NCBI GenBank assembly: GCA_037043015.1
Contig: CM073326.1
Location: 14,764,345-14,828,344 of the forward strand
Direction of reading: 5' to 3'
From: Bryum argenteum
Lineage: Eukaryota; Streptophyta; Bryopsida; Bryales; Bryaceae
Length of the DNA: 64,000 bases
Made by a program: the position numbers and the translations under genes. This document shows positions 26,320 to 52,045 of the stretch, one piece after another. Below the pieces are notes generated by a model. It saw only the letters and a list, made by a program, of their open reading frames with translations. It ran no database searches and was not told the origin of the DNA. How positions within the stretch are numbered: the first letter of the stretch is position 1; the number at the start of each line of letters is the position of its first letter.

Positions 26320-27291
26320 TCCGGGTACAACTCCTCAAAATTTGGGATCGACCATAAAATGGTTGATTGGGCTCTTAGGGGTTAAATTTATAATTTTGTG
26401 AACTCCAATCTACAAAATTTGGTACAAGGGTTGAAATTCTGAATTTGTCAATGACAGAACTGCAATAGAAAAGATTCGGTAATTCCTTGGTATTAGAATT
26501 CTACATTTTTGGGATTGATTTAAGGTCCTTAAATGTACTTGCCATTTTCCTTCAAGACTCTCTCTTGTAACCTAGTTGTACACAATTCGAGAGATTGGTG
26601 AGGAAAAATTTGGAAAGATTGGTGAAAAACAAATTGGAAAAAACTGCTCAGGAAACCGAAGAGATCAAACTTCCAACCATAAGATCTCAAAGTTAACTCT
26701 TCTAATCATATATTTGAGTTGTTGAACTTAAAAAATTGTTTGCAATTTGCAAAATTATAAGTTTGACCAAACATGATTAGTTGTTAACTACAACGGGCAA
26801 TGAGGGTTTAGAATTCTAGAGGCACATAATATGGTAAAAGTGTCTTAAATCCAATAAATAAACAATAGATATTGATGTAAGGTGCACGGTAATTGCTTTT
26901 TTCCATATTTTAATTGTCATCATTCAATTGTTGATGAATTTGTGAACCAAGACTATATGCAATTGTCTTTTTTCTTTTTCTTTTTTGATGAAAAGTTGTA
27001 CAATTGGACGTCTAAGTGCTACAAGAAAGAGACTTGTTTTCAAAAGTCTAAAACCTCGTACTAAACTTATGTAAAAATCATTCAATAAAAAACACATGAG
27101 CACCCATATTAATTTAAATCAAAACCACTCCACTAATTCTAGTTCATTCAAAGAATATAGCAAAAGAGTTATCATCAAGAATTCACATGGAGTTTACACA
27201 CTTCAACAATTCTACATCAAAAAGTATTACGAATGTTAGTAAAGCCATTCAATATACTCTTTGTAAATATCCACGACTTCAAGGCCTTTCC

Positions 27292-33509: not shown

Positions 33510-35853
33510 CCTAACTAGAGATTGATTGGATTTGCTAGGAACAGCTTGTAAATTGGCCTTGATGCAATGTTTATGAATTCAAAGCAACTAAAACTTCGCA
33601 ATTTGAAGACATGTTGCGTTTCTTTCAACCGTACTTTTATCTCTTGGGTTTACATCCATCCTCAGGTTTTTTGAAAGCTCTTTTCATATGTTACTAGTAT
33701 TGTACCAGAAGAATTTGTCGACTCCAGGACTCAATTTTGTGGTTGATTGGACTCAATCATGGCCCACTTCCGTCAGGTTTCGATGTAATAAGAAACTAAG
33801 CGACGTAAGTTTCATATGCGGTTGACAGTACCACTATGGTCAAATTTCTTCCTGTTATGGTTGGTGGTGGTGCGTAGAGGTGCGTTGGTGGGGATGATAA
33901 GCCCTCTACGCAATTTAAAAGCGGTTTCCACTTGCTTGTAATGATTCCCTGTCTTGCTAACGAGCAGTTGTATATCTGTTTGAAACTGTGTTTTTACATG
34001 TTCTCAACACTTACTTGTCAATGATATGAATACTTGTTCATTTGCTAAGTAGACAACAAGAGACAAGTACGACATGAATAACTTAATGCCCCTTTCCACC
34101 TGGCCTTGTTAAGAACATGTATTAAAACTTAACACCTCCACAAAATTGGGGAAATCCATTCTTTTTAGGAAGATGTCATCAATGAGACTCAGAAAAGTGG
34201 CATGAATAGTAGCCTCAATAACATAATGGCTTCTTAAAAGCCTTTTCAACTAAGGCCACTCTTAAGTGCTCAAAAGTTGAGAATTTTTCTAATTATGGTG
34301 CTTCCTTAACAATTGCCTACTTTTACCCAATTATTTTTGTCTTTCCAAGTATTAGCTTATATTTTTTTGTCCTCCTTTCTTTGAAGTTTACCATGTCGGC
34401 ATCCATGTAGGATTTGCAACTCTTTAAGAGGGGGCACACACTCTTTTGAAAGAGATAAAGGCGCGTTCGCACTTGGCCTTCGCTTAGAGCGTGACTTAAA
34501 ATTTTACACCCCCACAATTTGGGGAGGAATACCTTCTTTTGAGGAAAGGTGTAATCAATAGTGAGGGGATTACGTAATGGCCCCTCAAGTGGGACAATAC
34601 AGAAGACCACTCTTAAGTGAGGAAAATTTGAGAATCTTCCCAATATTGGTGCTCCCTTAACCCTTAAGCGGGCCGAATGTCGAAAATCGACATTTTGGAT
34701 GACAGAAACTTTGGAGAGCCATAACTTCTTCATCCGGACTCCGTTTTGGACGAAATCACTTGGGTTGGGTCCCAAATCAAGTCTAGTTCATGTCATAAAA
34801 ATCTCAGACCAATACAATGAAGTATGAATTAATGGCATGCATTTCAGTGATAGCAGCCTAGTTTTAGACATTTTTTCCTTTGTAAAATTTAGGGCAGTTT
34901 TCACCATTGCAGGGCCATAATTTGCACAAAGAAATTTTTCTCATGGTTTTTTTTTGTTCAAGGATGCTACTGAGATGAAGGTGAACAACATTCTAATTGG
35001 TGACTTTTTCATTGCAATAAGTCTAATGGTAGCATTTTCACTTTAAAGTGAAAATGATGAAATTATGTGATCATTTTTGAGTATTAATACATTATGATCT
35101 CGCAATCTATGAAGCCTCATGACTCAAAATTTGACCCACATGATGTTCAATATGTGTACGACAAGATTGTACGGTTGAGATTTGGATAACACACTTTTAC
35201 CTCCACCTATGACAATGCTTTTGAGGATGTGTTCATTTTACTACAAATGAGTCAAACCATTTAGGGGTTAAGTATTGCCTACTATTGCTCAAAGCTCTTT
35301 TGTTCTCCTAAATTTTTGCTAATAAACTACTCTTTAAAGTGTGCCATGTGGACATCCATGTAGGATTGGTAATTACTAATTAATGCAGGTAAAGAAAAAA
35401 AAAAACTAATGAATGTGTAATGTAGGTGCGAACACACACTTTTTAATAGAGTTAAGACCCCCTCCTAAGACCTCCTCTAAGGCCAAGTGCGAACAGACCT
35501 TAAGACCATCTTCTAAGACTAAGCGGTAACAGATCTTTATATACATTTGCTTTTTGGAGATCGAATGTAACAAAGCACTGATCTCGACAAAGTGATGAAC
35601 AATGAAATCGATTAGAAATATAGCCAGATCTGATACACAGGGCGAAACAAACGCCCGAATGAGTGAAATACTCAGAAACTGCAATTTTCAGTTTCACAAT
35701 TTAACCATCTTAAGAATATTCTATAATACAAATCAATCTAGCTGCGTAATTGGCTCCTGCATTCTGCATGTTTGAAGGGTGAGTTTAGGGTTCAAGGTTA
35801 AGAAGTGCTGCTGTATTGTGTTGCTTCAATTTTTTTTTGGAGCATCCGCAAAG
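33510..35853. repeat. Repeat-rich intergenic region
   Basis: Two tandem, diverged copies of an AT-rich repeat occupy about 34075-34440 and 34440-35500. The second is interrupted by a TTAA-flanked element at 34661-35267. Shared landmarks are CACTCTTAAGTG, TGGTGCT(T/C)CCTTAA, ATTGCCTACT and CATCCATGTAGGATT. The segment GGCCAAGTGCGAACAGACC and its near-complement also recur. No gene is seen. Confidence 0.65.
34661..35267. mobile_element. TTAA-flanked piggyBac-like non-autonomous element (607 bp)
   Basis: The element starts CCCTTAAGCGGGCCG and ends ACCATTTAGGGG (complement CCCCTAAATGGT). TTAA flanks both sides (34657-34660 and 35268-35271). The neighbouring tandem copy of the host repeat has the corresponding site unoccupied, with one TTAA at 34306-34309. 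The left ~200 bp and a central patch (TTATGATCTCGCAAT) match the element at 48553-50179. It has no ORF. TTAA duplication and CCC ends are hallmarks of the piggyBac superfamily. Confidence 0.75.
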
Positions 35854-48000: not shown

Positions 48001-48552
48001 CTAGCAATTCTCTTCATCATATTCTACAAAGACACTTTTGGCGGTATACTTTGTTCTTGAAGAGGGACTTCAAAGATTAAATTGTAGTTAGAGAAAATAG
48101 AAACTTTATCATCTATATCCTACATAAACATTTTTAGTAGCAAGATTTGTTCTTTACAACAAAAGTTCTTAATTTATGTTTAGTTTTTGCATTCAATCAT
48201 CTAATTTAAAGATATTGAATCTTGAATGTTGCTTGGACTATAACTTGCATTGGCATTTATATTTGTAATTATATTCACATTATCAAAGGACATGAGGAAT
48301 GAAAAGATCAAATAAAATGTCATGATAGTGATGTAGTCTACCCTCCCTTACAAATTGGTAGTGGCCACAATGGACCTTCATTATGTTCTTAAATTTGTAA
48401 TGTTCACTTCTAGAGGGCCTTTTCAAAAGCTGAAGCAACTGCTTTGCTTTCTAATTCTACTTTCTATAGTAAAGGTTTTCCTTTATTTGTTTGTTCATTT
48501 CTGTTAGAATTTATATAGATTTTTTTGTAACTTTTTAAAGATATTAGCTTAA
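48001..48552. other. 3' flank of kinase gene
   Basis: AT-rich sequence with no visible gene, ending at the TTAA-flanked element. Confidence 0.5.
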
Positions 48553-50179
48553 CCCTCAACCAGGTTGAATGTCAAAATCAACATTTTGGATGACTACATC
48601 AACTTTAAACTTTGACGACCCATAACATTCTCCATCTACAATCTCTTTTGGATGAAATCACTTGCATTGCGTCCCTAATCAAGTCTAGTTTGTGTAGTTA
48701 AAATTGCAAACCCCTACAATGAAGTATGATTTCATGGCATGCATTTTAGTGAAGGTAGCTCCTTGTGTCAAGTTTTCAAACATGGAGCTCGTTTTGCCGT
48801 TGGTAGGCAATTATGGAAAATAAAAGAGATGTCTCCTTGAATTTTTTTACATAATCACAATCTTAAGAAGAAGAGTTATTTACTTTCTAGTAGGAAGATT
48901 CTTGTTCTGAATAGTTTAGGTATTGGATATGCAACAATGTTTCCATCTTGAAAGAAAGTGAAGAAATGGATGATTTTTGAGAAGCTATGTCTGCGTCACC
49001 CACTGTTGGATTTTGACTTTATTTTTGGGATCGATTCCAACTAGAGTCTAGTTTTAGTGGTAGAAACCTTGACAAAATCAAACAGTAAGAGCTTCCTTAA
49101 ACCCTATTGAACGTAGTCTAACATACCAATAAAAATCCTTTATCATGTTGTAATTTTAGCTTTCCTTGTGTAGGAACCTACTTTTGAGTGTTTAGCCTTT
49201 GTCTTTAAGTATAAGTTGTCTTTGTAGATTATCATAGTAAGGGAGATAGAAAATTTAAATGACTTAAGTCTATTGTCTCACATTAACTCCTAGACGTCCT
49301 GACCTATTTTTAGCCAAGATCATATTTTCAAAAAAAATGTCATAGGAGAAAATAAGAATATGGAGCTATTTAGATCTCAATCGTACAAAACTTGTAATGT
49401 TGTTGGTCAAAAGGCAAGAGACCTCACACATTGCGAGATCATAACATATTAGAACCCAAAACACATTGCAAAATATGATCATTTTCACTTTAGACTGGAA
49501 ATTCTACTAACAAAGCTACCCCAATGAAAAACTTCCAACTAGAAATTTATTCATCTCTATCTCAATAACATCCTTTCTCAAAAAATATCTTTATCTAAAA
49601 TAATAGCCTTGAAGTGGTGAAAACAACCCCAAAATACAAAAAGAAAAAAAGTCCAAAACTAGACCCCTTGCACTTAAATGCATGCTATGTCTTTCTCACA
49701 TGTTGAATAAATTCAGGGTTTCTATTACTAAAACTAAATTTAGAGTTCAACACAACATACAAAATTGAAATCCAATGGTGGATGAAATAGATTCTCAAAA
49801 ACCATGTATCTATTTATTTTTCAGTGTTGAAACATCATTGGAAATCAAATATCTAAAATACTCACATCAAAATTCTTTCAACTACAAACTTGTTGGACTT
49901 CATCTGAAGATTATACTTATGCAAAAAAAATTCCTAAGAAACAAAGTTGAATTTCACCTGATTAACTTGCAATAGTAAAACATGCTCCATGTTTGAAAAC
50001 CCAAAAACATGAGTTGCCTTCACTAAAATGCTTGCCATAGATTCATACTTTGTTCCGTGGGTGTGAAATTTTTATTCTAGAAATTAAAACTTAATTTGAG
50101 ACCAAATCCAAGTAATTTCATCCAAGATTGATGTCTTCCATCCAAAATGTTGTTTTTTGACATTCGGCGTGTTTAGGGG
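48553..50179. mobile_element. TTAA-flanked element with long inverted arms (1627 bp)
   Basis: It begins CCCTCAACCAGGTTGAATG and ends with the complement of CCCCTAAACACGCCGAATG, with TTAA on both sides (48549-48552 and 50180-50183). The outer ~280 bp at each end are diverged inverted copies, sharing AACATTTTGGATG, GCATTTTAGTGAAGG and TTTTCAAACATGGAGC. There is no transposase ORF. The left arm and a central patch are also found in the 34661-35267 element. It is the largest family member in the window. Confidence 0.72.
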
Positions 50180-50183
50180 TTAA

Positions 50184-50386
50184 TGCCTCATACATTGAGA
50201 CTGATATATTGTTCACTTTAATAGAAGTTAGTAGTTGTACCATTCATGTTAAAATCAGCAAAGTATACTATTAATACGTACAATAAGTAGTCAATGTATG
50301 CCAACCTCAAGCAAGTTGGCATTACAAATTGAGATCAATTACATTGTCTTCTCTACAATCAACCCCTAAAAGCCTAAGATGTTTGA
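50184..50386. other. Spacer between TTAA elements
   Basis: AT-rich, non-coding. Just before the 72-bp element a second motif ATCAACCCCTAAAAGCC appears, suggesting an older related end. Confidence 0.4.
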
Positions 50387-50390
50387 TTAA

Positions 50391-50462
50391 CCCCCTAAAA
50401 GCCCAAGAGGACGAAATTGGTATCATTTTCACTCTAATTTGACAACCTTGGGCCTTTAGGAG
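50391..50462. mobile_element. Miniature TTAA-flanked element (72 bp)
   Basis: Starts CCCCCTAAAAGCCCAAGAGG and ends CCTTGGGCCTTTAGGAG, imperfect inverted complements of ~17 bp. TTAA precedes at 50387-50390 and follows at 50463-50466. The CCC(N)TAA ends link it to the two larger TTAA elements. Confidence 0.6.
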
Positions 50463-50482
50463 TTAAACACTAAGGGCATTCA

Positions 50483-50840
50483 TATAGATAGAAACTCCTG
50501 TCCCTTTCTAAGGGGCCGGCGTGAATGAAGTATCTGTTTGTAATGCTAATATCCCGATGTCCACCGGACAAGGGGAAATTGGAACAATACTACTTCCCCC
50601 TCTCGAGGGTGGACACTATAACTACGCTAGTTTTTAGCCTAGTTACTAATGCCTTGAAGATACTTGACATAGTATCCCCCCAAAGGGCTTTGAGGTACCC
50701 ATACAACAAGGTCCAAAGACCCCCCACAATAGTTGGGTAGACTATAGTGGTGAGCACCACGCCAGCATATGGAATAGAACCCACGACCTCCTCATTGGGG
50801 GCTTAAGCCCTAACCACCAAGCCAAGGCTTGTGGTGCCTT
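50483..50840 (-). mobile_element. tRNA-derived SINE (358 bp) with target duplication
   Basis: The minus-strand head carries an A-box-like TGGCTTGGTGG (50814-50824) and a B-box GGTTCTATTCC (50771-50781), the layout of a Pol III tRNA-type promoter. The element is flanked by the perfect 12-bp direct repeat TAAGGGCATTCA at 50471-50482 and 50841-50852. Its head aligns with 24930-25010. The body after the head is not tRNA-like and has no long A tail. Confidence 0.85.
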
Positions 50841-50852
50841 TAAGGGCATTCA

Positions 50853-51265
50853 CAACAAACTAGCTAAAGGCTAAAGGAGTAAGGAAGCTATGTTTAACCA
50901 TGCAAAGGTCATTTTTTTTTCTCAATAGATTGACTATTGGAGTACTACCTCTGGTAGTCCACTAGAGAAATGCTCCACACCCGCTAAACGTAGCCGCTCG
51001 TTACACCCCTTGCCACCCTTCTAACTCCGACTCATACGCGTCCTTGATTTCAAGTTAACTTGACTTTCAATTGGGAGATTTCGTGCCACCTATTAGAAAA
51101 CTTCAAAACCTTTGGATTTTCAAACTTTGATTATTGTTAATTCTTTTTAATGGTATAGTAGCTCTGGATTGGGAAGGTTGCAATTCACAAGGGGTGCTAC
51201 ACTTAGCAACCCCTCCTCCTTGGTTACATATAGCCACTTCTTTAGTCAGTTTGTTGGAAATGTCC
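50853..51265. other. AT-rich spacer
   Basis: Intergenic sequence between the SINE and repeat arms. I see nothing in it. Confidence 0.4.
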
Positions 51266-52045
51266 TAAGGTTGGTCAAGTTTATACCGCTAAAACTAGAC
51301 TCTATTTGGAATCTGTTCGAGAAAATAAATTTGAAATCCAACAGTGGATAAAGGGGATATAACTTCTCAAAAATCATCCTTTTTCACTTTTTCATCATGG
51401 AAACATCATTGCAAATTCAATACCAAAGGTATCCAAATCAAAATCTTCCAACAGTTTTGGATTTTATCTTAAGATCATGAATATATAAAAACTCTCATAG
51501 AAAACTAAATTGAATTACGGATAATTGGCTTGCAATGGCAAAACATTCCTAATGCTCAAAAACCCAAAAGCACAAGTTGCCTTCACTAAAATGCATGTCA
51601 TTTATTGTGACTCTCTTTTTGGGTCTACAATTTTCACCACACAAACTAGACATAATTTGGAATCCAACTCAAGTAATGTCCACGAAAATGAACTCTAGAT
51701 GAAGAAGTTATAGCTCGTCAAATTTTCTGCCCTTCATCCAGAATGTCGTTTTTCAACATCTTGTGCCTTAAAGGGTAAATGTTTGACAACCCAATAACAA
51801 ATGTTTCCCTCACTAAAATTCATGCCATTAATTAAAATTTTATTCTATGAGCTTGCATTTTCTAACACACAAACTAGACTTGGTTTGAAACTCAACCCAT
51901 TCCAAGAGATAGTATAGAAGCATCTATATCCAGATGCCACCCTTTAATTGTGCAACCTATTTTCTAGATTTTATCACTTATCTCGTAGATTAGCCAACCC
52001 TTGAATGTACCCCATTCGACATTTAGCACATGAAGGGTTCAAAGC
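51266..52045. repeat. Partial copies of the TTAA-element family
   Basis: About 51266-51780 aligns with the right half of the 1.6-kb element (49740-50180), sharing GTTGCCTTCACTAAAATGC, and ends AATGTCGTTTTTCAACAT then GGGTAAAT. About 51790-52045 is a second, more decayed arm ending ATTCGACATTT then GAAGGGTT. The TTAA borders are degraded, so these are old copies. Confidence 0.6.

Follow-up and report, generated by a model that had tools for sequence, protein, structure and literature searches.

A TTAA-flanked miniature transposon of probable piggyBac type, with candidate transposase sources, in the moss Bryum argenteum

The DNA analysed here, which we call the window, is a stretch of 64,000 nucleotides from the moss Bryum argenteum (C6:14764345-14828344, in a genome of 258.8 Mb and 25 contigs). 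A host repeat within it is interrupted by a 607-bp insert lying between two copies of TTAA (Table 1). The first-pass annotation had described a TTAA-flanked insert of this length with a CCC start and a GGG end, and this description was confirmed. We consider it highly probable that the insert is a piggyBac-type miniature inverted-repeat transposable element (MITE), pasted into TTAA by a piggyBac-type transposase from larger elements of the same genome. The annotation's suggestion that a plant genome harbours non-autonomous elements of the piggyBac type is thus supported by the TTAA flanks, the CCC ends and the presence of piggyBac-type transposases elsewhere in the genome.

Table 1. Positions, in window coordinates, of the insert, its internal palindromes and the surrounding host repeat
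Feature	Position	Strand	Remarks
Neighbouring related host-repeat copy without insert	~34130-34430	+	Single TTAA at 34306-34309
Host repeat, left part	34458-34656	+	Starts with inverted repeat 34458-34480
Left TTAA target-site copy	34657-34660	.	TTAA on both sides in 32/32 distinct full-length copies aligned
piggyBac-type MITE (probable), CCCTTAA...TTAGGGG	34661-35267	+	607 bp
Left-end palindrome, proposed binding site of the cysteine-rich domain	34677-34693	.	Element bp 17-33, centre bp 25; position compared with PMC7351741 (part of text available)
Central 24-bp perfect palindrome	35033-35056	.	Holds TTAA 35043-35046, the target of the nested element in copy L026
Right TTAA target-site copy	35268-35271	.	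From copy alignment
Host repeat, right part	35272-35501	+	Finishes with inverted repeat 35479-35501

The sequence around the insert had been read as a tandem duplicate, with a preserved empty site adjoining. Indeed, when the flanks of the insert are joined they align with the neighbouring segment on both sides of the junction, and that segment is free of the insert and has a single TTAA. However, the two segments are really two copies, lying close together, of a different dispersed repeat. Around the insert, this repeat is delimited by a 23-base inverted repeat, and alignment to a second copy of the host repeat, L002 on C7, stops at these same inverted repeats. As the host is a dispersed repeat, the neighbour is a related copy without the insert and not a pre-insertion allele. 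The same holds for the copies listed from the rest of the genome. A search with a 433-bp host query from which the insert was left out gave 426 candidates at first look; 40 of them were scored, and 43 rows were listed. The junction was crossed by 40 of the 43 listed rows, at lengths too short to hold the insert, and 30 covered exactly positions 1-433, with identities of 66-87%; absence of the insert was judged from these spans, with TTAA left unread. These copies are again paralogues of the interrupted repeat and not alleles. In L002 the host is interrupted at the corresponding position by the same insert (98.4% identity across the insert; 91.5% and 94.3% across the host parts). The composite of host repeat and MITE therefore occurs in two places (34458-35501 and L002), bounded in each by the host inverted repeats; it may have arisen by joint transposition, by conversion or by two separate insertions into one site.

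The insert belongs to a large family with fixed borders. An exact 26-mer from its 5' end, including TTAA, has 351 matches in the genome (175 and 176 by strand), and a 33-mer lacking TTAA has 380 matches at up to two mismatches; reversed-pattern controls gave 0 in both cases, so that the number of 5' ends exceeds chance. When 5' ends were picked without TTAA, 41 exact 33-mers fell within the range of the listed 26-mer places (C1, C2, and C3 to 22.9 Mb, both lists being confined to their first 100 places), and in 40 of these the motif stood directly before the 33-mer. Additionally, in a whole-element search (6205 first-look candidates, 40 scored, 43 rows listed), all 40 scored rows covered at least the whole element together with both complete TTAA copies, and the other three rows were short and partial. 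From the 351 exact 26-mer places we cut out 30 loci, which comprised 25 with a full-length MITE, one split by a nested element (L026) and four with a different inside (L012, L013, L025 and L027). Together with L001-L008, these loci yielded 32 distinct full-length copies, all flanked by TTAA on both sides and sharing CCC ends, which bears out the annotation's expectation for genome copies. The element tips, CCCTTAA at the 5' end and CCCCTAA at the 3' end (reverse complement), agree at 6 of 7 positions.

The 32 aligned copies differ on average by 0.82% from the majority base and by 1.29% from one another, with a minimum pairwise difference of 0, although these copies were selected by an exact end or a top score and the true spread is larger. 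Differences are very small between L002 and L001 and between further copy pairs. Such near-identical copies represent a recent burst of the MITE.

One copy provides a direct view of insertion. The MITE copy at L026 is interrupted at its central TTAA by another such element, whose ends are TTAACCCC and GGGGTTAA. The TTAA is duplicated, and the MITE parts to either side match the window element at 97.9% and 98.8% identity. Because intact MITE copies are available for comparison, this duplication is visible at base resolution.

Other relatives were seen in passing. L025 and L027, of about 0.9 kb, combine the same left end with another inside, and their right end, GATCGAAACGTTTAGGGGTTAA, is shared with a transposase locus, L067; we regard them as a MITE family of their own within the same clade. 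The window itself contains, at 48549-51899, a nest of older MITE relatives, in pieces of about 69-84% identity that lie in either orientation. One left end is at 48549, another is reversed and ends at 50183, and there is a TTAACCCCC end at 50387. A lone CTTAGGGGTTAA at 26379-26385 resembles a piggyBac-type right end.

A search of the genome with the transposase profile PF13843 gave 775 candidates, of which 116 were scored. At least 116 strong matches are thus present, all of those scored having E <= 1.4e-69, and none was found in any of 14 control genomes. In 93 of the 116 scored matches the matched domain contains no stop. Scored transposases were found on every one of C1 to C11. We rejected the idea that the piggyBac sequences are animal or fungal contamination of a plant assembly, to which we attach next to no probability: the MITE lies on a 20-Mb contig, in a window that also bears plant-type genes, such as one for a legume-lectin receptor kinase, the transposases are spread across C1 to C11, and a plastid contig (C12) is part of the assembly. 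The psaA gene on C12 points to a moss as the probable host: its best match in the PDB is 6l35, from the moss Physcomitrium, with 7ksq, 7kux and 7xqp, and 8htu follows closely.

The transposases themselves are diverse. Thirty that were fetched fell into six clusters at a 50% identity cut, with a lowest pairwise identity of 35%. The three catalytic Asp residues are retained in 30, 29 and 30 of these 30 proteins, respectively, and a cysteine-rich tail pattern is present in 22. Among the 97 rows compared with L067, the first 22, which represent the clade of L067, L039 and L076, are 83-100% identical to it, and 17 of the 22 are free of stops in the match. Compact elements with both ends, of 2.2-2.6 kb, are represented by L041, L042 and L045; the left end of the element of L067 was not found in an 8.5-kb stretch.

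Larger elements of this clade share their ends with the MITE. Two of the loci with a different inside, L012 and L013, reach into elements of about 6.0 kb, and the first 46 bp of the MITE are common to both kinds at 97.8%. L039 holds a complete element of 6036 bp with both TTAA copies (L039:1029-7064), which also has the last 12 bp of the MITE and whose match to PF13843 is split in two (E 1.2e-63 and 6.4e-7). A 98% copy of this element, L040, lies 36 kb away. A second complete element, L076, was found by intersecting the 26-mer places with those of the transposase clade. It spans 5887 bp with both TTAA copies (L076:66-5952; borders TTAACCC...GGGTTAA), has the exact MITE 26-mer, and resembles the MITE at 87% across the first 46 bp, with the last 14 bp in common. 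Its 1226-aa frame is unbroken, matches PF13843 across profile positions 4-349 (E 3.1e-76) and ends in a complete cysteine-rich tail. The annotation had proposed a search for a DDE transposase with piggyBac motifs and matching ends, and what was found are PF13843 transposases within TTAACCC...GGGTTAA elements with related left ends. Upstream of the transposase in L039 is a 150-aa open frame (L039:1856-2305) with no Pfam match, which may form a 5' portion of the transposase gene or be a separate gene.

The common left end includes a palindrome. If the first base of the transposon is taken as bp 1, the MITE pairs at 8 of 9 positions across bp 17-33, centred on bp 25, with AAAA at bp 23-26; pairing as good about that centre occurred in 10 of 20000 random 60-mers of the window. 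L039, L025 and L027 also have 8 of 9 pairs. Pairing is weaker in the L026 insert (6) and in the window copies at 50183 (5) and 48549 (6, about bp 24.5), and L041, L042 and L045 reach only 5 of 8 pairs near bp 25. According to the available portions of PMC7351741, the palindrome bound in moth piggyBac by a dimer of the cysteine-rich domain (CRD) lies within bp 17-33; the minor groove is centred close to bp 25, and bp 22-25 form an A-tract. By analogy, the moss transposase would bind the bp 17-33 palindrome through its own CRD, and the left-end palindrome may represent a CRD-site layout common to this clade. Right-end palindromes are weak and scattered: in most elements the best has 5-6 of 8 pairs, and its position varies, and so we make no claim on the right ends.

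These results suggest a model whereby the insert is a miniature, non-coding piggyBac transposon, copies of which would be inserted at TTAA by a piggyBac-type DDE transposase that larger elements of the genome provide in trans. The best candidate suppliers are the 5.9-6.0 kb elements represented by L039 and L076; their transposase clade probably recognises the MITE, and such elements are its likely autonomous partners. Excision of the MITE would, by analogy, be precise. Read directly from the DNA, the evidence for this model consists of the TTAA ends, the fixed borders, the recent burst of near-identical copies, the nested TTAA insertion, the insert-free host copies and the transposase elements with related left ends.

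Several observations weigh against the model. The L039 transposase frame contains a stop, between the two matched pieces, and L040 is likewise broken. One of the 41 comparable 5' ends lacks a preceding TTAA. The palindrome is unseen at bp 25 in L042 (3 pairs) and in the window element at 50387 (0), and 8 of the 30 fetched transposases are without the cysteine-rich pattern, several of them ending early at a stop. Finally, a single parent element with both MITE ends was sought among the fetched elements, and the tips alone matched: in none does the match go past 46 bp at the left end and 12-14 bp at the right end, and, at the sensitivity applied, the interior of the MITE is unrelated to that of either L039 or L076.

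TTAA targets are not unique to piggyBac, being used by Kolobok and Sola3 as well. The insert might thus be a MITE of one of these superfamilies, piggyBac-like at its tips only, and the unrelated interior would fit such an origin. We nevertheless regard it as very unlikely, because the MITE shares a 46-bp left end at 97.8% identity, palindrome included, with a TTAA-bounded element that encodes PF13843. Its CCCT/CCCC tips also fit the motif CCCT, the most prevalent piggyBac end in beetles according to the portion of PMC12732532 available, and PF13843 was found in elements with such ends, no Kolobok or Sola3 profile having been searched.

A more serious alternative accepts the piggyBac MITE as proposed but holds that the system is extinct, such that the burst is over and the copies are merely inherited. 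The mean pairwise difference of 1.29% indicates that the sampled copies are not brand new, and the two broken elements, L039 and L040, point the same way. In contrast, the stop-free domains in 93 of the 116 scored transposases, and the copy pairs that barely differ, such as L002 and L001, or do not differ at all, speak against extinction. We consider extinction a real but rather doubtful possibility. A piggyBac system that may still be active is consistent with the sequences, and we tentatively propose, with confidence falling a little short of even, that the moss harbours a living, native, multi-lineage piggyBac system, with six transposase clusters, dozens of unbroken domains, a MITE burst driven in trans and a moth-like palindrome position.

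We also noted an uneven distribution of elements among chromosomes. C1, at 44.1 Mb (17% of the assembly), accounts for none of the 132 listed Pkinase rows and for 5 of the 116 scored transposases, and among the first 100 MITE 5' ends listed, 3 are on C1 versus 57 on the 34.6-Mb C2. C1 thus looks like a gene-poor chromosome avoided by piggyBac elements. A putative sex chromosome has been described in the moss Niphotrichum, where it is the largest chromosome, poor in genes and rich in repeats (PMC10619864, text available in part).

Hundreds of copies and many unbroken transposases in a land plant alter the current picture of piggyBac, and raise the question of horizontal entry versus long residence. 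They also offer plant-resident versions of a transposon already in use for marker excision in plants, and the common palindrome position constitutes a direct test of the generality of the moth synaptic architecture.

The piggyBac group is best known from animals. In the parts of the literature accessible to us, piggyBac-type elements are stated to occur in fungi, plants and metazoans (PMC8086355), to be occasional in plants, for example red algae (PMC12732532), and, as a superfamily, to be among those present in all groups studied (PMC4438587). A PiggyBac label appears in the repeat tables of C-fern (1230 copies, 122,417 bp; PMC6890710) and Stipa (1 copy, 75 bp; PMC8319324); as available, these are table rows, among which element structure, transposase and TTAA evidence do not figure. 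We found no description of a bryophyte piggyBac element, a weak negative given that most subscription papers fall outside the coverage. The word piggyBac is absent from the available text of a study of transposons in Physcomitrium (PMC7466625), and that of the Niphotrichum genome paper (PMC10619864) yielded no report of it, one of two occurrences of the word being 'expression piggybacking'. The kind of element is therefore already known, whereas its host and scale are little reported in the literature searched.

Two characterised systems allow a closer comparison. One is piggyBat, a bat element. Its transposase (PDB 9c0f) is of the same family as those described here, with E values of 7.4e-24 (L042) and 4.9e-21 (L067), a weaker match than that to moth piggyBac (E 2e-29 to 2e-24 for L042 and L067; PDB search). 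The other, piggyBac of Trichoplusia ni (IFP2; PDB 6x67/6x68), differs in that the host here is a plant and the window element a 607-bp non-coding MITE, and in size, the partner elements being 5.9-6.0 kb with frames of up to 1226 aa as against 2472 bp for moth piggyBac (PMC10813416, available in part). Nevertheless, the two are alike in their TTAA target, CCC ends and PF13843-type transposase. The three Asp residues of L042 align with 6x67, and the moth triad is given as D268, D346 and D447 in the available part of PMC7351741. Both have a C-terminal cysteine-rich domain, predicted to bind zinc in the moss proteins, and the left-end palindrome of the MITE, which is weaker or unseen in some related elements, agrees in position with that of the moth element (bp 17-33; moth positions from the same portion of PMC7351741).
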